Positions 7,100 through 56,383 of a stretch of 64,000 bases of DNA are shown piece after piece (the stretch's first letter is position 1; each line of letters opens with the position of its first letter). A model generated the notes under the pieces. That model was not told where the DNA came from and searched no databases. It saw only the letters and a program-made list of their open reading frames with translations. This DNA comes from an uncultured Lachnospiraceae bacterium. Its GTDB lineage: Bacteria > Bacillota > Clostridia > Lachnospirales > Lachnospiraceae. The stretch covers positions 1 to 64,000 of the forward strand of contig OMXP01000003.1 of assembly GCA_900315055.1 (NCBI GenBank), given 5' to 3'. A program made the position numbers and the translations under genes.

Positions 7100-8788
7100 A
7101 TGAGAGAGGAAGGAAAACGACAGCGATACGAAGAGAGAGGGCGGGTACCGTCTTTCCTGTTGCCGGCAGTTCTCCTTCTGTTTCTGTGTCTTCTCCCGGC
7201 CATCCCGGGGAGAGCCTCCGGGGCGCAGTACGCGGGAGAGGAGCACCGGTGGGAGACCACCTACACGATCGACCGGGAGCCGACCTGTGATGCGGAAGGC
7301 TCGATGTCCGTGCACTGCATGGACTGCACCGCAAAAAGGGACAAGGTCGTGATCCCGAAGCTCGCCCATGACTGGAGCGAGTGGACGGTTACAAAAGAGC
7401 CAAAGGACGGGAAAGAGGGAGCACGGGAGAGAACCTGCAGCATCTGCAAGACAAAGGAGACGGAAACCATCGACGCCCTGCCCCACAGCTGGGGAGAGTG
7501 GACCTATATCGCCGCAGCCTGCGACGAAAAGGGAAGTGTCACCAGGACCTGCAAAGGCTGCGGACAGGAGGAGACGATTGAGATCCCGGCTCTCGGGCAT
7601 CAGTGGTCCGACTATGTCGTGACAAAGAAGTCCTCCTGCACGGAGGACGGGGAGCAGACAAGGACCTGCACCGTGTGCGGAAAGACCGAGACGATCCCTA
7701 TCCCGGCAGCAGGCCACAGCTGGAGCAATTTTACGACGCAGACGGAGGCGGGACCTGATACGACCGGCGTGCGGGTCAGCACCTGCAGTGTCTGCGGAAA
7801 GACGCAGCAGTGGACCATCCCGGCGACCGGAGAGCATCACTTCGGCGAGTGGACGGTTATGGCCGCCCCGACCTGTACGGCGGACGGCCTCGAGACGCGC
7901 ACCTGCACGGATCCCGGGTGCGGGGCGGTGCAGCAGCACAGCCTTTCAAAGACCGGTCACTGGTGGAGCGAGTACCTTGTGCAGAATGAGAGCACCTGTG
8001 AGGAGAACGGCTCCCTGATCCGAAAGTGCTATCGTTGCGAAACGCTCGATACGCTCGAGGTCAAAGCACCGGGCCATGCCTTCACGAAGTGGAAGCTGAC
8101 CGCAGATCCGACATGTACGAAAGAGGGAAGCCTTGTCGGCACCTGCAGCGTCTGCGGGGAGACGAAGGAACTTACCATCGATGCAGAGGGCCACTCCTTT
8201 GACGAGTGGGAGATCATGAAGGAGCCGGACTGCAGGACGCCGGGGAAACGGGAGCACACCTGCCGTGTCTGCGGGGAAACCGAGGAGGAAGAGATCCCGG
8301 CCCTCGGCCATCACTACACGGAATTTACGGCAAAGGAAGAGGCCGCCTGTGACCGGGACGGGACCATGTCCCGCACCTGCACGAGGTGCCACATCACCGA
8401 CAACCTCTCCATTCCGGCGGCAGGCCACAGCTACGGCGAGTGGATCGTCGAGAAGAAGGCAACCTGCACCGATAAGGGACTTCGGGCAAGGACCTGCTCA
8501 AGGTGCGGGGACCGGATCGAACAGGAGATCGCCGCAATCGGCGGCGACCACCACTTCGTCAACGGCGTCTGCACGCGGTGCGGCGCCTCCCAGTATGAAA
8601 ACACGAACACCGCCGCCTCATCCGCCGGACAGGCAGATACCGGCTCTTCCGGGGATGATGCGCCCTTTGCGGCTCCTGCCGCGGGTCTGATCATCCTTGT
8701 CATTGCCGTTGTCGCGGGACTCTTTGTCCTGGCTGCATACCTCACGTACCGGCAGGAGAAGAAGGAAGACGACATCACCGGATACTGA
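7100..8788 (+). CDS. Membrane-anchored CxxC-repeat surface protein
   Basis: The 562-residue protein has a signal sequence or N-terminal anchor (hydrophobic stretch at about 19-34), about eleven repeats of roughly 40 residues, a short partial twelfth, a Ser/Ala-rich linker and a C-terminal membrane helix (LIILVIAVVAGLFVLAAYL) with a charged tail. Each repeat has the outline H-x-W/F-x-E-W ... C-x-x-x-G ... R-T-C-x-x-C-G ... I-P-A-x-G-H, so three Cys and one His recur per unit. I chose ATG 7100 because GGGGAGG is five bases upstream; GTG 7094 is possible. Such repeats suggest an extracellular zinc-ribbon-like or disulfide-stabilised stalk. The function is unknown. Confidence 0.85.
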   Translation: MREEGKRQRYEERGRVPSFLLPAVLLLFLCLLPAIPGRASGAQYAGEEHRWETTYTIDREPTCDAEGSMSVHCMDCTAKRDKVVIPKLAHDWSEWTVTKEPKDGKEGARERTCSICKTKETETIDALPHSWGEWTYIAAACDEKGSVTRTCKGCGQEETIEIPALGHQWSDYVVTKKSSCTEDGEQTRTCTVCGKTETIPIPAAGHSWSNFTTQTEAGPDTTGVRVSTCSVCGKTQQWTIPATGEHHFGEWTVMAAPTCTADGLETRTCTDPGCGAVQQHSLSKTGHWWSEYLVQNESTCEENGSLIRKCYRCETLDTLEVKAPGHAFTKWKLTADPTCTKEGSLVGTCSVCGETKELTIDAEGHSFDEWEIMKEPDCRTPGKREHTCRVCGETEEEEIPALGHHYTEFTAKEEAACDRDGTMSRTCTRCHITDNLSIPAAGHSYGEWIVEKKATCTDKGLRARTCSRCGDRIEQEIAAIGGDHHFVNGVCTRCGASQYENTNTAASSAGQADTGSSGDDAPFAAPAAGLIILVIAVVAGLFVLAAYLTYRQEKKEDDITGY

Positions 8789-36908: not shown

Positions 36909-38927
36909 ATGGACAAGACACCACTTGAGTGGAAGAAGCTGTACGACAGTGCAGACTTCCGGAAAAACTGCACGTTTGAGGGAGAACTGGGACCGGTCTG
37001 CGGGAAAACGGGGACAAGGCTTTCTCTCTGGAGTCCGGTATCGGACACCTGCACGCTCAGGCTCTACCGGGACGGGGAGAGGGACACGGCACCTTTTGCC
37101 ACGTTTCCGATGACAAAGAACGGGCAGGGCGTCTTTGTCTTTGAGACAAGGGAAAATCTCGACGGGACCTTTTATGACTTTCTGCTGACAAGAGACGGAG
37201 AGGAGATTGTATCCGGCGATCCGTACGCGGTGGCCTGCGGGGCGAATTCCGTGCGGTGCGAGATCGTGGATCTTGAGACGACGAATCCTTCCGGGTGGAA
37301 GAGCGACAGGGCTCCGGCGCATCAGACAGAGACCATCATCTGGGAGACCCATGTGAGGGACTTCTCGTTTGACAGGAGCGGCGGTTTTCCGGAGAACACG
37401 CGGGGAAAGTTTGCAGCCTTTGCGGAGCACGGGACAAAGGTGCAGAACTCGTCTTCGTCTGCTTCAACCGGGATCGACTATCTCTCTCAGCTTGGCATCA
37501 CCCACGTGCAGCTGATGCCGGTGTTCGACTATGCGACCGTCGACGAGACGGGGAAGGACCCGGCACTCGAGTACAACTGGGGCTATGATCCCGTTTACTA
37601 CAACGTGCCCGAGGGGTCCTATTCGAGCAACCCTGCCGACGGAAAGGCGAGGATCCGGGAGCTGAAGGAGGCGATTGCCTCCCTGCATGAGGCGGGGCTT
37701 CGGGTCATCATGGACGTCGTCTACAACCATACCTTTGACCTGAACAACGCGATGCAGCAGAGCATGCCGGACTATTACTTCCGTGTCACGAAAGAGGGAC
37801 AGTACGCCAACGGCTCCGGTTGCGGAAATGATGCCGCCTCCGAGCGGGAGATGGTGGGAAAGTTCATTCTCGACTCGGTGCTGTACTGGGCAAGGGAATA
37901 TCACTTCGACGGCTTCCGTTTTGATCTCATGGGACTTCTTCCGGTGGGACTGATGAACCGGATTCAGAGAAGTCTCGACAGGGTCTACGGAAAGGGCGAG
38001 AAGCTGGTTCTCGGAGAGCCCTGGGCCGCGGGGCCGTCGGCGCCGTCCCGCAGGGTAAAGCTTGCCGCAAAGGCAAACTTTGGCGGCATGGACCGGAAGA
38101 TCGCGATGTTCTGCGACAACACCCGCAACATGGTCGCGGGAAGCCCTTTCGATGACAAGGATCACGGAATCGTCGCCCATACGGTCTCCTGCCATGCCTA
38201 CCGGCAGGCCCTTGATGACTGGGAGGACGCGCCGGACCTTCCGGTCTCTTCTCCGGCACAGCTCGTGAGCTATGCAAGCTGCCACGACAACTACACCCTG
38301 ATCGACAACATCGCCCGGGGAACGAAGGATCCTGCAGAGCAGCTGCGGCGGGCCCGTCTTGCCCCCTGCATCTACATGACCTGCCCCGGGATTGCGTTCC
38401 TGCTCTCCGGCGAGGAGTTCCTTCGCTCGAAGGGCGGAGATGGCAACTCTTACCGTTCCCCTTCTTCCGTGAATGCCATCCGCTGGGATCAGATGGAGCA
38501 GAATGCTTCAATGGTGACGCTCTACAAAGAGCTGTTTACGCTCCGGAAAAAATGCCCTGCCTTCTTCGGAAAGGGGAGCAGGAGGCGTGTGCTTTCGGCA
38601 GATGTCACGGACCGGACGCTTCTTGCAAGGCTCGACAATGCCTACCGTTCCTCTGACATGCCGGAGGGGTATCTCGGGAACTTTGACGCGGAACAGCTGC
38701 GGGAGGCGAAAGCCTTTGCCGGAAAGTACCCGGAGCTTCTCATTCTCCTCAACACCGACGAAAAGACACACAGCTTTACCCTGCCGGAGGGGGCCCATCA
38801 CCTGCTCTTTACGAACCTTTCGGGAAGCACGGATCCGGAGAAGGTATCCGGCGACAGTGCCGTACCGGTCGACCCCTGCGGCTTCCTGGTGTACGGACGG
38901 GTAAGCAATGATAGCAAATCAGAATAA
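36909..38927 (+). CDS. pulA: Type I pullulanase / glycogen debranching enzyme (GH13)
   Basis: The 672-residue protein has an N-terminal CBM48-like domain, the GH13 barrel and a C-terminal beta domain. It hydrolyses alpha-1,6 branches. Conserved regions are VIMDVVYNHT, DGFRFDLMG with the nucleophile Asp, VLGEPWAAG with the acid Glu, SCHDNYTL, and YNWGYDP, the mark of type I pullulanases. No signal peptide is present, so it acts on internal glycogen or imported glucan, in line with glycogen phosphorylase at 52 kb. ATG 36909 follows GGGGG; upstream in-frame codons lack a site. Confidence 0.93.
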   Translation: MDKTPLEWKKLYDSADFRKNCTFEGELGPVCGKTGTRLSLWSPVSDTCTLRLYRDGERDTAPFATFPMTKNGQGVFVFETRENLDGTFYDFLLTRDGEEIVSGDPYAVACGANSVRCEIVDLETTNPSGWKSDRAPAHQTETIIWETHVRDFSFDRSGGFPENTRGKFAAFAEHGTKVQNSSSSASTGIDYLSQLGITHVQLMPVFDYATVDETGKDPALEYNWGYDPVYYNVPEGSYSSNPADGKARIRELKEAIASLHEAGLRVIMDVVYNHTFDLNNAMQQSMPDYYFRVTKEGQYANGSGCGNDAASEREMVGKFILDSVLYWAREYHFDGFRFDLMGLLPVGLMNRIQRSLDRVYGKGEKLVLGEPWAAGPSAPSRRVKLAAKANFGGMDRKIAMFCDNTRNMVAGSPFDDKDHGIVAHTVSCHAYRQALDDWEDAPDLPVSSPAQLVSYASCHDNYTLIDNIARGTKDPAEQLRRARLAPCIYMTCPGIAFLLSGEEFLRSKGGDGNSYRSPSSVNAIRWDQMEQNASMVTLYKELFTLRKKCPAFFGKGSRRRVLSADVTDRTLLARLDNAYRSSDMPEGYLGNFDAEQLREAKAFAGKYPELLILLNTDEKTHSFTLPEGAHHLLFTNLSGSTDPEKVSGDSAVPVDPCGFLVYGRVSNDSKSE

Positions 38928-38968: not shown

Positions 38969-38998
38969 TTGTGACAGGCACCGGCCCGATGCTAGAAT
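38969..38998 (+). promoter_or_regulatory. Promoter of the aminotransferase-deiminase operon
   Basis: TTGTGA (38969-38974) and TAGAAT (38993-38998) are 18 bases apart. Transcription would begin near 39005, leaving a leader of about 200 nt. Confidence 0.6.
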
Positions 38999-39021
38999 AC
39001 AGCCATCAGCAGTACCAAGAA

Positions 39022-39185
39022 GCCTGAAAGGGCCGATAATACAAACGAACAGACAAAGGCGTTTGTATGGATCTCGAACAGAATCCATGCAGACGCCTTT
39101 TTTGGTTCCTTTGGCACGGTGCCGCCGAAAAAAGCATATGATACCCTCCCTGGCACCGGATCCACCAAAGGACCCGGTGTTTTCT
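39022..39185 (+). promoter_or_regulatory. Attenuator leader with competing hairpins
   Basis: Four elements follow one another. A GCCT-GAAA-GGGC tetraloop hairpin lies at 39022-39033. A 9-bp hairpin pairs 39039-39047 with 39060-39068. A 16-bp terminator (39057-39072 with 39083-39098, two G-U pairs) is followed by TTTTTT at 39098-39103. A second imperfect hairpin near 39153-39180 is followed by TTTTCTATTTT. The 9-bp hairpin uses the left arm of the terminator, so the two cannot coexist. No known riboswitch or T-box motif was recognised. Confidence 0.7.
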
Positions 39186-39206
39186 ATTTTCACAAGGAGG
39201 CAGGTT

Positions 39207-40349
39207 ATGACAAGAATGACAGAAAGTACGTACGATGGCATGAGGCAGGAAACGGGTATCCCGGATCTTACCGGGATCCTGAGTGATGATCTTCGAAACA
39301 AACCTGCCTCGAAGCGGGAGGCGAGACAGAAGGGCTGCCCCGACTACCGGGGACTCCTGCACATGGGGCTTAACGAGAATGCCTTCGGCATGGCGCCCTC
39401 GGCAAAGAAGGCGGCGATCGATGCCGCGATGAAGGGCAACTACTACGAGGATTTCATGAGCCGGGATCTGAAGAAGCAGATCGCGGAGACGCTCCACGTA
39501 AATCCCGAAGGGATCATGACCGGCGCGGGGTCCTCACCGCTCATCGAGTACCTGGGGCAGGCATTTTTAAATCCCGGCGATGAGGTGCTCATGTGCCGCA
39601 CGTTCTACGCCTTCGTCGACATGGCCCAGATGCGAAGCGCAAAGGAGGTCATCGTCCCGCTGACGAAAGACTATCGCTACAACCTGCCCGGCATGCTCTC
39701 CGCGGTGACGGAAAAGACAAAGATGGCGGTCATCACAAATCCGAACAACCCCACCGGTCAGTACGTCTCCTACGACGAGATCCGGAACTTCATCGAGGCC
39801 CTTCCGAAGAACATCGTGGTGGTTGTCGATGAGGCCTACATTCAGTTTGCGACAGCACCGGACTGCAGAACGGTCCTGCCTCTCATTGACGAGTTCCCGG
39901 ACCATCCGATCATCGTTCTCCGGACGTTCTCGAAGTACTACGGCATGGCGGGGCTGCGCGCAGGATTCCTCGTGACACAGCCCGCGATTCTCGACTGGCT
40001 CGATGCGGTCTCCGAGTCGGAGACATCCCTCACTGCCCAGGCGGCAGCCGAGGCGGCTCTGAAAGAGCAGGACTACTACAGGGACTGCAAGAGAAAGATC
40101 GTCGAGGGCATCGACTACATCACAAGAGAACTCACGGCTCTCGGGTGTGACGTATTCCCGACCCAGACCAACTTCATCATGTTCGACCCGCACGAGGATC
40201 CGCAGGTGATCCGGCAGAAGCTCATCGAGCGGGGAATCCTCATTGCAACACCGATGTTCTGCCGCGTCACCGTGGGAACCATGGACGACAACCGGGCCTT
40301 CATCGCCTGCATGAAGGACATCCTGAAGGAACTGCGGAAGGCGGCATGA
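39207..40349 (+). CDS. Class I/II PLP aminotransferase (HisC-like)
   Basis: The 380-residue fold-type I aminotransferase resembles histidinol-phosphate aminotransferases: GLNENAFGMAPSAKKA start, NPNNPTGQYVS, VVDEAYIQFA and the PLP lysine in TFSKYYGMAGLRAGF. Its place with a RocB-like hydrolase and an arginine-deiminase-fold enzyme, away from his genes, argues for a role in amino acid breakdown. AAGGAGG precedes ATG 39207; earlier in-frame codons fall in the leader. The next gene starts one base after its stop. Confidence 0.9.
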   Translation: MTRMTESTYDGMRQETGIPDLTGILSDDLRNKPASKREARQKGCPDYRGLLHMGLNENAFGMAPSAKKAAIDAAMKGNYYEDFMSRDLKKQIAETLHVNPEGIMTGAGSSPLIEYLGQAFLNPGDEVLMCRTFYAFVDMAQMRSAKEVIVPLTKDYRYNLPGMLSAVTEKTKMAVITNPNNPTGQYVSYDEIRNFIEALPKNIVVVVDEAYIQFATAPDCRTVLPLIDEFPDHPIIVLRTFSKYYGMAGLRAGFLVTQPAILDWLDAVSESETSLTAQAAAEAALKEQDYYRDCKRKIVEGIDYITRELTALGCDVFPTQTNFIMFDPHEDPQVIRQKLIERGILIATPMFCRVTVGTMDDNRAFIACMKDILKELRKAA

Positions 40350-40350
40350 G

Positions 40351-41994
40351 ATGATTGACGAGGAAGTACGAACCCTGACAAAGCAGCTGGTCAGGATCCA
40401 GAGCATCAACAACACGAGCGGTGAGAAGGACATCGCGGACTTTATCGAGGGCTGGTTTCGAAAGCTCCCCTATCTTCAGAAACACCCCGAAAACCTGATC
40501 ATCGCTCCGATCCCGGGCGACCCGCTGGGACGAAAGAGCGTCCTGGCACTCCTTGCGGGGGAAAAGGACGACAACAACAGGACCGTCCTTCTGCACGGAC
40601 ATATCGACACCGTGGGACTTGAGGGCTACAACGAGCTTGCCCCCTATGCCTGCGATCCCGATGCGCTTGCAGTGCACCTTGCGGACGCGGATCTTCCGGA
40701 CGAGGTCCGGAAGGACCTGGAAAGCGGAGACTTCCTCTTCGGACGGGGCTCCTGCGACATGAAGTCCGGAGATGCGGTATTCATGGTCCTCTTTGAGAGA
40801 TTTGCAGAGCACCCGGAGGAGTTCTCCGGAAATCTCGTTGTCATGTTCAATCCCGTCGAGGAAAACATGCACACCGGGATCATCACGGCACTGCCGGCAC
40901 TGGCAGACCTCAAGAAATCCCGCGGCCTTGACTTTGTCTGTGCCCTGAACAATGACTTCACCGCGCCCCTCTATCCCGGGGATCCGATGAAGACGATCTA
41001 CACTGGCATCGGCGGAAAGGTTCTTCCCTGCTTCTACATCCAGGGGAAGGAAACCCATGTCGGACAGTGCTTTGAGGGCGTCGATGCGGCCATGCTGGCG
41101 GCAGCCCTGACGCTCCGCATTCAGCTCTCGATGGACTTTGCGGACAGCTATGAGGGCGAGACCTGCTATCCGCCGAGTGTCCTGAAGATGAAGGACCTGA
41201 AGACCTGGTACAACGTGCAGACGATCAAGGAGGCCTTTGTCTACTTCAACGTCTTTGTCCACAACGCACCGATGGATCAGATCACAAAGCGGCTTCTTGC
41301 CTGCGCCGAGGATGCGTTCCGGGAGGTCATTGACCGGATCAACAAAGAAGAGGAGCGCTTCTGCGGCCTTTCCGGCGAGGAGTTCCATGCGGTCACATAT
41401 GAGCCCCTGGTCCTGACCTATGAGGAGCTGAAAAAGAAGGCAGAGGAGAAGGCGGGGAAGGAGAAGGTGGAGACAGAGCTCTCCGCCCTCGTAAAGGAGA
41501 AACAGGCAATGGGCACCGATGCAAGAGAGGTCGGCATCGCCCTCGTCCGGCGCCTTCTTCAGATCTCCGGGATCAACCGCCCGGCGATCGTCCTCTACTT
41601 TGCACCGCCCTACTGCCCGCACTCGACCCTGAAGGAGGACGAGAAGGACCTTCTTGCGATTCTGAAGGAAGCAGCGGAAGAGGAGACGAAGACTTCCGGA
41701 ACCGCGTACCGGTTCCTGCACTTCTATCCGTCTCTTTCCGACAGCAGCTACCTGAAGATCGATGATGACGATGCCTCAATCCACGCGCTCACGGACAACT
41801 TCCCGGCCTTTGAGACGCTCTATCCTCTGCCGGTCGACAGGATCCGGGAACTGTCGATTCCTGCGGTGAACATCGGGTGCTTCGGCGCGGACTGCCACAA
41901 GTGGACGGAGCGCGTCAACATGCCCTACACCTTCGGCGTGCTGCCGCATCTTGAAAAGACCATGATCACAAAACTTCTGGAAAGGAGATCCTGA
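40351..41994 (+). CDS. RocB-like M20-family metallohydrolase
   Basis: The 547-residue protein is of the arginine-utilisation RocB type within the zinc M20 aminoacylase/peptidase clan. The first metal-site region is VLLHGHIDTVGLEG, the second FGRGSCDMKSGD, and the catalytic/metal Glu pair is in FNPVEENMHTG. It probably hydrolyses an amide or peptide bond of an acylated or dipeptide form of an amino acid. It is coupled to both neighbours (TGATG overlap with the next gene). Confidence 0.88.
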   Translation: MIDEEVRTLTKQLVRIQSINNTSGEKDIADFIEGWFRKLPYLQKHPENLIIAPIPGDPLGRKSVLALLAGEKDDNNRTVLLHGHIDTVGLEGYNELAPYACDPDALAVHLADADLPDEVRKDLESGDFLFGRGSCDMKSGDAVFMVLFERFAEHPEEFSGNLVVMFNPVEENMHTGIITALPALADLKKSRGLDFVCALNNDFTAPLYPGDPMKTIYTGIGGKVLPCFYIQGKETHVGQCFEGVDAAMLAAALTLRIQLSMDFADSYEGETCYPPSVLKMKDLKTWYNVQTIKEAFVYFNVFVHNAPMDQITKRLLACAEDAFREVIDRINKEEERFCGLSGEEFHAVTYEPLVLTYEELKKKAEEKAGKEKVETELSALVKEKQAMGTDAREVGIALVRRLLQISGINRPAIVLYFAPPYCPHSTLKEDEKDLLAILKEAAEEETKTSGTAYRFLHFYPSLSDSSYLKIDDDDASIHALTDNFPAFETLYPLPVDRIRELSIPAVNIGCFGADCHKWTERVNMPYTFGVLPHLEKTMITKLLERRS

Positions 41995-43013
41995 TGGCAA
42001 CGCTGCAGATGTACATGGACCAAAGCAGGATCGACAACACCTTTACTTCCGACGTCTATTCGGAGGTCTGGGGAAGAGATCTGTTTGTCGACAACTCAGT
42101 GGGAAGAATCCGGAAGATCCTCGTCCACTGCCCGGGAGAGGAACTGAACCAGCTCAAAGACGGCGCCTTTGAGGAGGAGGCAGGGGCCAGAATCCTCAAG
42201 GACCCCAAGGGGAGGATTCGCAACTACTGGAAGGACGAGAAGCTTCCCGACCTTCCGAAGATGCAGGAGCAGCATCACGTCCTGACGAAGATCCTTACAG
42301 ATGCGGGCATTGAGGTGCTCTCCTTTACGGACCCCACGGGCTACTGGACGAATCTGACCTACACGAGAGACATCGCCCTCATGACGCCGAAGGGCGTCAT
42401 TCTGAACCGCTTTGCGATGTACTTCCATCAGGGAGAGACCCGTCTTGCCCAGCGCTTCTTTGCGGGGCAGGACATCCCGATTGTCGGCGCGATTCAGGGT
42501 ACCGGAACGATGGAGGGCGGGAGCTTCTCCATGCTCGATGCCCACACCGCCGTGGTCGGACGGTCTGTCCGGATCAACGACGAGGGCATCGCACAGCTGA
42601 GGAGCCTCCTCTCGTATCAGGGAATTGACCTTATCGTGGTTGACATCCCGGCCTACTACATCCACCTCGACGAGACCTTTGTGCCGGTGGACAGGGACAA
42701 GGTCCTTGCGAGCACGTTCATCCTGCCGTTCTGGTTCTTAAAGCTCCTGAAGGACCGTGGGTATCAGATCATCGAGTGCGACCGGGACGATCCCATGATG
42801 ACGAACAACTGCATTGCCATCGCACCGGGGAAGGTCCTGCTCTCCGATCAGGGCGTCAGGACGCGGAAAAATCTCGAGAAGGCAGGCGTTGAGGTGATCC
42901 CGGTTCCCTACACCGAGATCTTCAAGCTCGGCGGCGGCATTCACTGCTCGACCCTGCCGCTTCTTCGCGATCACGTCGACATGGTCGGTGATCCGGGGCC
43001 CTTTAAGGCTTGA
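41994..43013 (+). CDS. Arginine deiminase / dimethylargininase-fold hydrolase
   Basis: The 339-residue guanidino-group-modifying enzyme shows the expected catalytic set: Asp126 (TRDIAL), Glu174 (MEGGSF), His224-x-Asp226 (YIHLDETF) and nucleophile Cys318 (GGGIHCSTLP). It could convert arginine or a derivative to the citrulline analogue plus ammonia, or act on methylated arginine. It lacks neighbouring arcB and arcC, so a classical ADI pathway is not encoded here. It ends before the ABC transporter promoter. Confidence 0.88.
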   Translation: MATLQMYMDQSRIDNTFTSDVYSEVWGRDLFVDNSVGRIRKILVHCPGEELNQLKDGAFEEEAGARILKDPKGRIRNYWKDEKLPDLPKMQEQHHVLTKILTDAGIEVLSFTDPTGYWTNLTYTRDIALMTPKGVILNRFAMYFHQGETRLAQRFFAGQDIPIVGAIQGTGTMEGGSFSMLDAHTAVVGRSVRINDEGIAQLRSLLSYQGIDLIVVDIPAYYIHLDETFVPVDRDKVLASTFILPFWFLKLLKDRGYQIIECDRDDPMMTNNCIAIAPGKVLLSDQGVRTRKNLEKAGVEVIPVPYTEIFKLGGGIHCSTLPLLRDHVDMVGDPGPFKA

Positions 43014-43069: not shown

Positions 43070-43098
43070 TTGACAAATATTAAGACACGTATTAGAGT
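43070..43098 (+). promoter_or_regulatory. Promoter of the amino acid ABC transporter operon
   Basis: TTGACA (43070-43075), 17 bases and TAGAGT (43093-43098). The same -35, spacing and -10 are found at 11341-11369. Confidence 0.8.
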
Positions 43099-43129
43099 AT
43101 ACACAAATACAATTTCTTTTCGTTCGCAG

Positions 43130-43164
43130 AGACGCGTTGGGAATTCTCCCGGCGCGTCTTTTTT
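43130..43164 (+). terminator. Leader terminator before the ABC transporter operon
   Basis: A 13-bp stem with two G-U pairs (43130-43142 with 43147-43159), loop ATTC, is followed by a T-run to 43164. It starts about 25 nt after the expected transcription start and lies 38 bases before the first start codon, so it should attenuate this operon. Confidence 0.8.
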
Positions 43165-43201
43165 GTTGCCAACTGCATCAAAGATGCAAAAGGAGGAGAA
43201 G

Positions 43202-44137
43202 ATGAAAAAGAAGATCACAGCAGTGGTACTTGCAGCGGCATTCGCAGCGAGTCTGATGACGGGCTGCGGCTCGAGCAGTTCGAGCTCTAGCAGCGCATCA
43301 AGCGCGGCGACAACGGCAGACACCACGGCAGCAACGGCGGAGACCTCGGCCGCAGCGGAGACCACCACCGCAGCAGCGGAGGAAACCACCACGGCAGCAA
43401 CGGATACTGCCTCGACCGGATCCATTCCGACGCTTGAGGACGGCGTCCTGAACGTCGGCGTCGAGATCGGCTATCCTCCCATGGAGTACTTCGACGAAGA
43501 CGGCTCGACCATGATCGGCTTTGATATCGAGATGGCAACGGCTCTTGCCAAGGATCTCGGCCTTGAGGTGAAGTTCAACGACACCGCATGGGACGGCATC
43601 TTCGCCGGCGTTGACACCGACAAGTACGATGTCGTCATCTCCTGCGTCTCCTACACGGACGACCGCAATGATGCCTACTGCCTGACCAAGCCCTACATCG
43701 AGAACGCACCGGTTCTCGTCGTTCCCAATGACTCCGACATCACCGATGTCTCCGAGCTCTCCGGAAAGAGCGTCGGCGTGCAGATGGAGACCACCGCAGA
43801 CTACCTGATGCAGGATCAGCAGAGTTCCGGCGTGGATCTTGACCTGCACCAGTATGAGAAGGTCATGGAGTGCTTCAGCGACCTGCTTGCCGGCCGTCTC
43901 GATGCGGTCTGCACCGACTCCGTCGTCGCCTCCTACTACCTCGGCGATGCCGCCAAGGATTACAAGACCGTCTGGACGTCTCCCACCAAGGAGCCCATCG
44001 TCATGTGCCTGAAGAAGGGCAACGACGAGCTGGCAAAGGATCTTGAGGGTGCCCTCGATGACCTTCGCGCAGACGGCACGATGGACGAAATCGCAACCAA
44101 GTACTTCGGAACGACGGACGTCCTTCCTCAGGAATAA
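43202..44137 (+). CDS. Amino acid ABC transporter substrate-binding lipoprotein
   Basis: The 311-residue precursor has a lipobox (SLMTGC, lipid-carrying Cys22), a Ser/Thr/Ala/Glu-rich linker of about 50 residues and a type II periplasmic-binding fold of the polar amino acid family (LNVGVEIGYPPMEYFDEDG; MIGFDIEMATALAKDLG). It should capture a polar or basic amino acid outside the membrane. ATG 43202 has AGGAGG in front; homology and the signal peptide start there. Permease and ATPase genes follow. Confidence 0.93.
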   Translation: MKKKITAVVLAAAFAASLMTGCGSSSSSSSSASSAATTADTTAATAETSAAAETTTAAAEETTTAATDTASTGSIPTLEDGVLNVGVEIGYPPMEYFDEDGSTMIGFDIEMATALAKDLGLEVKFNDTAWDGIFAGVDTDKYDVVISCVSYTDDRNDAYCLTKPYIENAPVLVVPNDSDITDVSELSGKSVGVQMETTADYLMQDQQSSGVDLDLHQYEKVMECFSDLLAGRLDAVCTDSVVASYYLGDAAKDYKTVWTSPTKEPIVMCLKKGNDELAKDLEGALDDLRADGTMDEIATKYFGTTDVLPQE

Positions 44138-44164
44138 CGAACCGGAGTTTGCCAGGAGAATATC

Positions 44165-44812
44165 ATGCAGAAAGTATTGCTATGGATCCCGCAGCTGCTG
44201 GGCGGCGCACGTAACACCATCATCATCACGATCATCTCGGTCGGTATCGGAATCGTGCTCTCGCTGTTCCTTGCGCTCGGCAAGATGTCGAAGCACAAGC
44301 TGATCAGCAAGCCCTGTTCCGCCTATATCTTTTTCTTCCGTGGCACACCGCTCCTGATGCAGATCTACTTCATCTACTACGGCCTGCCCCAGATCAATCC
44401 GGCCCTGACGATCAAGAGTGCGTTCAACGCGGCACTGCTTGCCTTTACGCTGAATACGGCGGCGTACCTGGCGGAGGATATCCGCGCAGGCGTGCAGTCC
44501 ATTGACGCCGGACAGTTCGAGGCGGCAAGGACCCTCGGCATGAGCTACTGGCAGATGATGCGGCTGGTCATCATACCGCAGACCATCCGCCGGGTGATTC
44601 CGCCGGTCGGCAATGAATTCATCATGGCCCTCAAGGATGTGTCCCTGGTCTCCATCATCGGTCTCTCCGACCTCACCAAGGTGACCCGTCAGATCTCGTC
44701 CTCGCAGGCGACCGCCATGGTCTACATCCCCGCGATGATCATCTATCTCATCATCACGGCGGTGTTCACCGCGATCTTCCGGCAGGTCGAGAAGAAGAAC
44801 TCGGCTTACTGA
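44165..44812 (+). CDS. Amino acid ABC transporter permease
   Basis: The 215-residue HisM/GlnP-type permease has about five helices. The cytoplasmic EAA loop, [21 protein letters not shown], is clear in its core [34 protein letters not shown] is the usual N-terminal motif. It lies between the binding protein and ATPase genes and is expected to work as a homodimer because no second permease is present. Confidence 0.95.
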
Positions 44813-44832
44813 CAGGCAGGAAGGAAGAAGAC

Positions 44833-45591
44833 ATGTCGATCATTCGAACGGAAAACTTATGCAAGAACTTCGGCGAGCTGCACGTGCTGAAAGGTGTAAA
44901 CCTCACCGTGGAAAAGGGAGAAGTGGTTGTCATCATCGGCGCATCGGGCGGCGGCAAGTCGACGTTCCTGCGCTCCCTCAACAACCTGGAGACGATCACG
45001 GCAGGCTCGATCTACTTTGAGGACAAGCTCTTTGTAAGGGCTGAGAACGGCAAGGTCCTCGAGGAGATGCCGAAGAAGGAGAAGAAGGAAGCCCTCCTGA
45101 AGATGGGAATGGTGTTCCAGCGCTTCAATCTCTTCCCGAACATGACGGTAAAGGACAATGTCATGTCGGCGCCGGTCCACGTGAAGAAGATCCCGAAGGC
45201 ACAGGCCGAGGAAACGGCGATGGAACTGTTGAAGCGCGTCGGTCTTGCCGATAAGGCAGACGAGTATCCGTCCCGTCTCTCCGGCGGACAGCAGCAGAGA
45301 GTCGCGATCGCAAGAAGCCTTGCGATGAGCCCCGACATCATGCTCTTTGATGAGCCGACCAGTGCCCTGGACCCCGAGCTTGTGGGCGAGGTGCTGAACG
45401 TCATGAAGGGTCTTGCAAAGGACGGCATGACGATGATCTGCGTCACCCATGAGATGGGCTTTGCCCGTGAGGTCGCCGACAAGGTGGTGTTCATGGGCGA
45501 GGGAAAGATTCTCGAGGAAGGTGCTCCGGATGAGATCTTCAATCATCCGAAGACAAAGCAGGCACAGCAGTTCCTCGGAAGCATCTTGTAA
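44833..45591 (+). CDS. Amino acid ABC transporter ATPase
   Basis: The 252-residue GlnQ/HisP-type ATPase has Walker [10 protein letters not shown], the signature [15 protein letters not shown], Walker [14 protein letters not shown] and the switch His in VTHEMGFA. The insertion of about 15 residues with [11 protein letters not shown] after strand 3 is a little long for the family. AGGAAGGAAG precedes ATG. Third gene of the transporter operon, closed by a terminator. Confidence 0.96.
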
Positions 45592-54391: not shown

Positions 54392-54842
54392 GTGCGCTCG
54401 GCGGCGCACGTTTCTAACTGGTGCAAGTCCAGAATCCACCCGGTAGTGGGAAGGATATAGCCGAAGGCAAGGGTGTCCATCGCGAGATGGAATCTGAAGG
54501 AAGCTGGATGCGGGGAAAGTACTAACCCGTGGGCAAACCTCTGGCCTGACGTACAGGAAGCTCATATTAGGTTGCATGCGAGGGTAAGACTGCAAGCCAA
54601 GCCGAAGCCCAGTAACTGCACGGAATCGCATGGAATAGATGAGACAGGTAGATGGAGGAAAAGAAACGTGTGGTACCCGAGGAGGTCTGCGGGATACACC
54701 CTGAAAGGGGCAACCGCCGCCCAAAGCGGCGCTGAACTCGCAGAAGTCAGCAGAGGTCATAGTAGTCGGTCATAGACGAGGCCGGCGAAGGACCGAATCA
54801 ATAGTTAGTCCTGAGTACAGCCGGGGAAAGGAGGCAGGACCG
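54392..54842 (+). other. Intron RNA domains I-IV 5' part
   Basis: This gene-free 451-base stretch is the folded 5' portion of the group II intron. It starts with a GTGCGC...GCGCAC stem and contains typical intron sequence such as GGTGCAAGTCC. Exon-binding sites could not be assigned by eye. Confidence 0.7.
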
Positions 54843-56233
54843 ATGAAAGCAGAATCGCTCGTAAATGAGCACTGCCTGCAAAAGAATAGTGCGGAACACG
54901 AAGGATATGCAGGAGGGCGGAGGTCTCACCGACTGATATGGAAGGAAAGGGGCAGTGCAGGACCTGCACTCCTGGAAAAGATCCTGAACAAGGACAACCT
55001 TTACAGGGCCTACAAGAGAGTGAAGGCGAATCATGGTGCACCCGGAATCGACGGCATGTCGATCGAGGAAGCGCTCGTCTGGCTGAAAGAGAACGGAGCG
55101 AGACTGGTGGAAGATATCTGCCGGGGCAAATATACCCCGCAGCCAGTTCGTCGCAAAGAGATCGCGAAGCCGGACGGTGGAGTGCGGAAGCTTGGCATTC
55201 CAACGGTAGTCGACAGGATTATCCAACAGGCCGTAGCTCAGCAACTGGCGCCCATTTATGAGCCGCTGTTTGCAGACGAAAGCTATGGATACCGACCGGG
55301 GCGCAGTGCACAGGGAGCCATTAACAAGGTCAAGGAGTATGCGGAAGAGGGATACACACAGGCTGTAGTGTTGGATCTGTCGAAGTATTTCGACACGATC
55401 AACCATGAACACCTGCTCAATATCCTTCGTCGCAACATCACGGACGAGCGGGTCATACAGCTCATCAAGAGGTTTCTGAAAAGTGGTGTTATGGATCAGG
55501 GCGTCTTTGAAGAAACAGAGGCCGGGAGCCCGCAGGGCGGACCGTTGAGTCCTCTGTTGTCGTTAATCTACCTGAATGAATTCGATCAGGAGTTTGCGAA
55601 ACGAGGCGTTCGATTTGTCCGCTATGCAGACGACATCGCCATGTTTGCGAAGAGCAGACGGGCGGCAGAACGCCTGCTGAACTCCAGCGTTTCCTACCTC
55701 GAGGGCAACCTCGGGCTCACGGTCAACAGAACCAAGAGCAGGGTAGTGAGCGTCTTTTCAGCCACGCAATTCAAGTACCTTGGCTTCGCATTGGGAAAGA
55801 ACAGGAACGGCGTCTACGTTCGGGTTCATCCGAAGTCATTGGCAAAGTTCAGATCGAATCTGAGGAACCTCTCTTCCCGGAGGCATGCTCAGAGCATCCT
55901 TCCTGCGTTCAGAGCGATCAGGCTCTACGTTTCGGGATGGCTGAACTATTACGGCATTGCAACCATGAGGAAGTTCCTTATTACCTCACAGCAGTGGCTG
56001 AACCAAGAATCCGCATGTGCATCTGGAAGCAATGGAAACTGCCCAGAACGAAACTGCGGGAGCTGCGGAAACTTGGTATTAATGGGGAGTTGGCCTACAA
56101 CACGGCTTACTCCCGCAAGGCCTACTGGAGAATATCAAACTCCCAGGGGGTCAAAATGGCCCTTACAAACGAAAAGCTGTACAAGTGGGGACTCATTGAT
56201 ATGGTCGCCGCTTATACAGCCCTTGCGCACTAA
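54843..56233 (+). pseudogene. ltrA: Group II intron reverse transcriptase/maturase, frameshifted
   Basis: The RT domain is complete, with GIPTVVDRIIQQAVAQ, SYGYRPGRSAQGA, a SPQGGPLSPLL turn and the catalytic RYADDIAMF, and AGGAGG precedes ATG 54843. After WLNYYGIATMRKFLITSQQW the frame becomes nonsense (to 56279), while the adjacent frame continues with RIRMCIWKQWKLPRTKLREL and SRKAYWRISNSQGVKMALTN to a stop at 56233, the normal maturase end. One base is missing near 56004-56006. There is no endonuclease domain, as in class C. The intron is probably not self-mobile now, unless this is a sequencing error. Confidence 0.85.
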
Positions 56234-56383
56234 CACTATTGAAATCGCCGTATACCGAACGGTACGTACGGTGGTGTGAGAGGACGGGGGTTAGTCACCC
56301 CCTCCTACTCGATTCGTGCCGGCACAGGTCAGCGTATGTGCCTCAGAAAACGGCAAGTGTCCTCATGGTTTCCTCCGGGTCTC

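Follow-up and report, generated by a model that had tools for sequence, protein, structure and literature searches.

The leader of an aminotransferase operon in the window (the whole 64,000-nucleotide stretch of Lachnospiraceae DNA analysed here) is probably, at about 0.7, an ANTAR-type transcription attenuator that belongs to a nitrogen regulon and represents a variant with a single hexaloop; the partner that we infer is an ANTAR protein. Computation finds mutually exclusive structures in this leader, a conserved and covarying six-base loop with A in position 1 and G in position 4 (A1/G4), the same element ahead of other nitrogen genes, and co-occurrence of that element with ANTAR proteins. 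By analogy with EutV and NasR, a protein would bind the hairpin, binding would turn the genes on, and the signal would be nitrogen. Little has been described of nitrogen control in the Lachnospiraceae, which are a dominant family of gut and rumen, and the result provides a testable regulon and regulator for it. No description of ANTAR leaders in Lachnospiraceae was found in the literature searched.

The leader lies in a 280-bp gap that follows the pulA stop at 38927. Transcription is expected to start near 39005, to judge from the promoter-like site in this gap; no promoter fit of 9/12 or better occurs in 39104-39188. With that promoter just upstream of it, the first terminator sits in a 5' leader, and it may also end pulA transcripts. 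The coordinates are collected in the table.

Features of the leader, the operon and the second attenuator, with the ANTAR gene of the same genome (window coordinates unless a locus is named)
Feature	Position	Strand	Details
Promoter-like site	38971-38998	+	sigma-70-type, GTGACA-16-TAGAAT, TGn extension (extended -10), 10/12 matches
Small hairpin	39022-39033	+	GCCU-GAAA-GGGC, only 4 bp
9-bp hairpin	39039-39068	+	39039-39047 with 39060-39068, exact Watson-Crick, -7.2 kcal/mol
Hexaloop hairpin	39049-39066	+	ACAGAC[AAAGGC]GUUUGU, loop 39055-39060, A1 and G4, C-G closing
Intrinsic terminator	39055-39103	+	fold 39055-39100, -28.3 kcal/mol, z -9.2; T run to 39103; mutually exclusive with the 9-bp and hexaloop hairpins
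Second leader terminator	39153-39184	+	fold 39153-39180, UUUUCUAUUUU tail, no A1/G4 hexaloop
HisC-like class I/II aminotransferase	39207-40349	+	first gene of controlled operon
Large M20-family metallohydrolase	40351-41994	+	547 aa
Arginine deiminase/dimethylarginine hydrolase-like enzyme	41994-43013	+	
Second promoter-like site	43070-43098	+	TTGACA-17-TAGAGT
Second hexaloop attenuator	43125-43166	+	CGC[AGAGAC]GCG, loop 43128-43133, left arm of terminator 43129-43160
Polar amino-acid ABC transporter	43202-45591	+	binding protein to 44137, permease 44165-44812, ATPase 44833-45591
ANTAR protein	L064, 5137-5805	-	

Much of the structure described in a first-pass annotation is present. The 9-bp hairpin that shares the terminator's left arm is exact in the sequence, and the two structures exclude each other as proposed. 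The terminator, given as 16 bp at 39057-39103, is there and is longer than that, with 18 pairs and a 2-bp tip starting at 39055. The GAAA hairpin said to precede it exists as the short stem in the table, which can alternatively fold as GCC[UGAAAG]GGC and is then not an A1/G4 hexaloop; the leaders of relatives have no counterpart of it. The second terminator, called weaker, is indeed shorter, but at -15.9 kcal/mol it is not obviously weak. The attenuator does head an amino-acid operon that includes a guanidino-modifying (arginine deiminase/DDAH-like) enzyme. What failed was the conservation of the 9-bp hairpin, which the annotation had itself made its refutation test: 11 other leaders have no counterpart. 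Dinucleotide shuffling of the upstream stretch produces a helix of at least nine Watson-Crick pairs into the terminator left arm in 0.75% of cases, and in 8.6% when G-U pairs are allowed. With no comparable long helix in homologous leaders, the 9-bp hairpin was rejected as a conserved antiterminator; because it is not conserved it is a local feature, one that could help or hinder switching.

The conserved antiterminator is instead the shorter A1/G4 hexaloop hairpin, which uses the same right arm and is common to many nitrogen genes. In the window leader this hairpin is proposed to be both the antiterminator and the protein-binding site, equivalent to P2 of known ANTAR targets. Since a hexaloop with at least six pairs is found in 6.7% of shuffles of the window leader alone, membership of the family rests on comparison with other leaders. 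A 24-codon ATG frame (39068-39142, + strand) also runs across the first terminator, with AAAGG 8 nt upstream (MDLEQNPCRRLFWFLWHGAAEKSI); it is a possible leader peptide, and may follow from the terminator sequence alone.

Judged from its predicted products, the cluster plausibly takes up and breaks down an arginine derivative, which would make its role nitrogen scavenging. The second attenuator stands ahead of the ABC transporter genes, and one orthologous cluster (L032, at 7723-7760) shows the same second-leader arrangement as window positions 43070-43166.

Orthologous clusters occur in other Lachnospiraceae and in records labelled Erysipelotrichaceae. All seven operons with a complete promoter region carry, on the leader terminator, an A1/G4 hexaloop closed by C-G: GGC[AAAGAA]GCU (L032), GUC[AACGGA]GAC and UGC[AAAGGC]GCA (both in L034), UAGC[AAAGGG]GCUA (L035), UACC[AACGAA]GGUA (L038), GCC[AAAGGG]GGC (L039), AAAGCC[AAUGGG]GGCUUU (L040) and UAGC[AAAGGG]GCUG (L043). 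The upstream gene is divergent in most of the seven, so there the terminator must belong to the leader. In L036, L041 and L042 neither the aminotransferase nor the M20 gene was seen to follow an A1/G4 hexaloop leader; other genes precede in L036 and L042, so that the operon start may lie elsewhere.

The family-wide search for this element covered the region in front of glnN at 70 places in Lachnospiraceae and required a leader terminator bearing an A1/G4 hexaloop with C closure. It was found in 34 of 57 glnN leaders from ANTAR-containing genomes and in none of 13 from genomes that lack ANTAR (Fisher p 6.8e-5, a test that ignores phylogeny, including kinship among the 13 ANTAR-lacking genomes). 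The other 23 leaders of the 57 are without it, and one ANTAR-lacking genome has a hexaloop of the GG form. Loop classes in the glnN leaders were AG 34, GG 6, AA 2 and at most 1 for any other; the GG forms suggest that G is tolerated in position 1. In amt leaders AG accounts for 17 of 30 and GG for 3, with others at most 1, and in both gene families A1/G4 is favoured over the 15 other loop classes. Where glnN leader terminators have an AAxGG-like arm, 27 of 33 show four or more closing pairs without any selection for pairing. In the alignment of 34 hairpins there are 49 two-sided changes versus 16 in shuffles, and the covariation score is 0.70 versus 0.24 for shuffled alignments and at most 0.20 for slid controls, with G-U pairs kept; the figure leans upward because the inner three pairs were partly the selection criterion, although no selection was applied to the outer pairs. 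A palindromic DNA operator is disfavoured, as changes in the stems are compensatory and G-U pairs are retained.

Within this genome, about 0.85 Mb was surveyed. Terminators often begin with AAAGG, which gives the loop for free, and for that reason the closing pairs are the real test. For 43 terminators with an AAMGGS left arm, 28 had no closing pair and 7 had one; the window leader had six and three others had four. Two of these three stand in leaders, ahead of a putrescine aminotransferase gene and a nitrilase gene, and the third is a 3'-end terminator with no gene behind it. Among noncoding terminators in the survey, no loop class is as frequent as A1/G4 (9, versus at most 3 for any other), and the matches include leaders of glnN, amt, xanthine-permease-like and tyramine-oxidase-subunit-B-like genes. 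The hexaloop-headed genes of this genome appear to be members of a nitrogen regulon. Leader terminators bearing a hexaloop lie at L147 (contig C115, ~30.2 kb), L139 (C124, ~30.7 kb), L141, L130, L105 and L088, and the genes there are glnN, amt, xanthine permease, tyramine-oxidase-subunit-B-like, putrescine aminotransferase and nitrilase.

One protein in the surveyed sequence of this genome (G000) lies above the PF03861 ANTAR cut-off (C115:14160-14318). Its gene immediately follows a type I glnA and lies 15 kb from glnN. By sequence the protein matches Rv1626, EutV, AmiR and NasR; among ANTAR proteins of solved structure Rv1626, representative of the mycobacterial and actinobacterial systems, comes closest. 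At the position of the phospho-acceptor Asp of EutV, the receiver-like domain of the G000 protein carries Asn; ANTAR proteins of five relatives in the family likewise lack that Asp and have other residues there. Several EutV RNA-contact residues are changed (Y164 to H, R168 to E, N173 to D, R175 and R177 to S), Met172 is kept, and His at the Tyr164 position is also found in AmiR. ANTAR proteins are encoded in 105 of 120 family genomes, and in at least 25 genomes the gene is within ~25 kb of a glnN copy (coordinates compared by eye).

The signature of ANTAR targets is an A1/G4 hexaloop overlapping a terminator (PMC3369931, PMC8934654). The window leader has the six-base loop with A1 and G4, has it as a P2 that overlaps an intrinsic terminator on its 5' arm, and lies in a genome that encodes an ANTAR protein; across genomes, presence of the RNA in glnN leaders follows that of ANTAR when phylogeny is ignored. 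In these respects it resembles the EutV/EutW eut leaders of Enterococcus faecalis, which likewise serve nitrogen-related genes. In contrast to EutV targets, which have two hexaloops 5-12 nt apart with P1 obligatory (PMC3369931), the window leader has no A1/G4 hexaloop upstream of the hairpin, and it is because this two-hexaloop feature is lacking that the leader is classed as a single-hexaloop variant. A search for P1 in 18 leaders gave no excess of A1/G4 among hairpins upstream of P2. In glnN leaders the stem begins mostly 8-10 nt past the -10 hexamer, or at about the second RNA base, and this position at the extreme 5' end leaves no room for P1; the distance is 15-37 nt in the operon orthologues and 50 nt in the window. 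The EutV-RNA structure shows one hexaloop as the binding unit (PMC8934654), whereas genetics calls for two, and leaders that naturally have one would help choose between the models.

Other known systems differ in further ways. NasR carries a nitrate-sensing domain and AmiR has AmiC as a partner, so the sensor parts are unlike those of the ANTAR protein here. NasR-nasF and AmiR-amiE also control nitrogen-acquisition genes, by ANTAR-dependent antitermination that the window leader would share by analogy, and they use a dual hairpin (PMC3369931) where the window leader has a single one. Published actinobacterial ANTAR targets often act on translation, whereas an intrinsic terminator overlaps the hairpin in the window leader. 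PMC8164766 deals with those actinobacterial targets.

The switch would work as follows. By default, polymerase starting from about 39005 would make the first terminator and stop at about 39103, the terminator being favoured energetically (-28 versus -7 or -5 kcal/mol). When nitrogen has to be scavenged, an ANTAR protein would bind the hexaloop hairpin as it emerges; this protein is most likely the single clear ANTAR protein of the genome, encoded beside glnA. The bound hairpin would hold the left arm of the terminator, and polymerase would continue into the aminotransferase-M20-deiminase operon. The second copy of the switch would gate the ABC transporter genes, and the regulon would be shared with glnN, amt, xanthine permease, putrescine aminotransferase and nitrilase. 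The chances are roughly even that Lachnospiraceae have a minimal ANTAR system in general, made up of a pseudo-receiver protein beside glutamine synthetase and single 5'-end hexaloops, often serial, of which one suffices.

The alternative that survives best, itself unlikely, accepts a true attenuator family and assigns it to another RNA-binding protein or factor rather than ANTAR. The single hexaloop with no P1 would fit such a partner, as would the divergence of the contact residues from EutV. Against it stand the A1/G4 loop with C-G closing, the nitrogen regulon, the co-occurrence with ANTAR and the proximity of the ANTAR gene to glnN (~25 kb or less in at least 25 genomes).

It is much less probable that the terminators merely end the pulA transcript and that the hairpin pairing is due to chance. 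Palindromic terminators often provide alternative pairings, and there is no other terminator between 38927 and 39055. However, a good promoter precedes the terminator and none of 9/12 or better follows in 39104-39188, relatives keep the same design with a divergent upstream gene, and the glnN and amt leader families show the element too.

Rfam gave nothing for the window leader at gathering thresholds and only a chance miRNA match at E<=10, and nothing for related leaders. T-box, guanidine, lysine and glycine riboswitches also place an alternative terminator in a leader, yet Rfam has no match to these at any useful score, in agreement with the first-pass annotation. DNA searches for homologues of the leader returned only chance matches in 62 genus and 299 family genomes, and no conserved structured domain of the kind expected for a new aptamer was seen upstream of the expression platform, either among leader homologues or in upstream hairpins. 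That annotation had left the choice between a riboswitch and a protein-controlled attenuator, and its second branch is the one supported. Least probable of all is a riboswitch whose 5' part, with the GAAA and 9-bp hairpins, binds an arginine-like ligand: the layout had been described in that form, a 45-nt 5' part exists and the 9-bp helix is improbable by chance (0.75%), but there is no Rfam match and no leader homologue in the genomes searched, neither hairpin is conserved, and glnN leaders, in which almost no RNA precedes the same hexaloop, make an aptamer unlikely.

At L232, L233 and L243 (amt), L172 and L173 (glnN) and L034 (an orthologue of the window operon), one gene is preceded by two hexaloop attenuators placed one after the other. 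Such serial attenuators may stand in for the paired hexaloops of known ANTAR targets. A TGTATACA-like palindrome is found at the transcription start in L032, L035, L043, L038, L039 and L040, most with a divergent GntR-type gene, and may represent a second, DNA-level control in the orthologues. Elsewhere in the window, positions 54476-54793 (+ strand) contain group II intron domains (Rfam RF02001 and RF01998), and the reading frame after them at 54843-56279 could be an intron-encoded protein.
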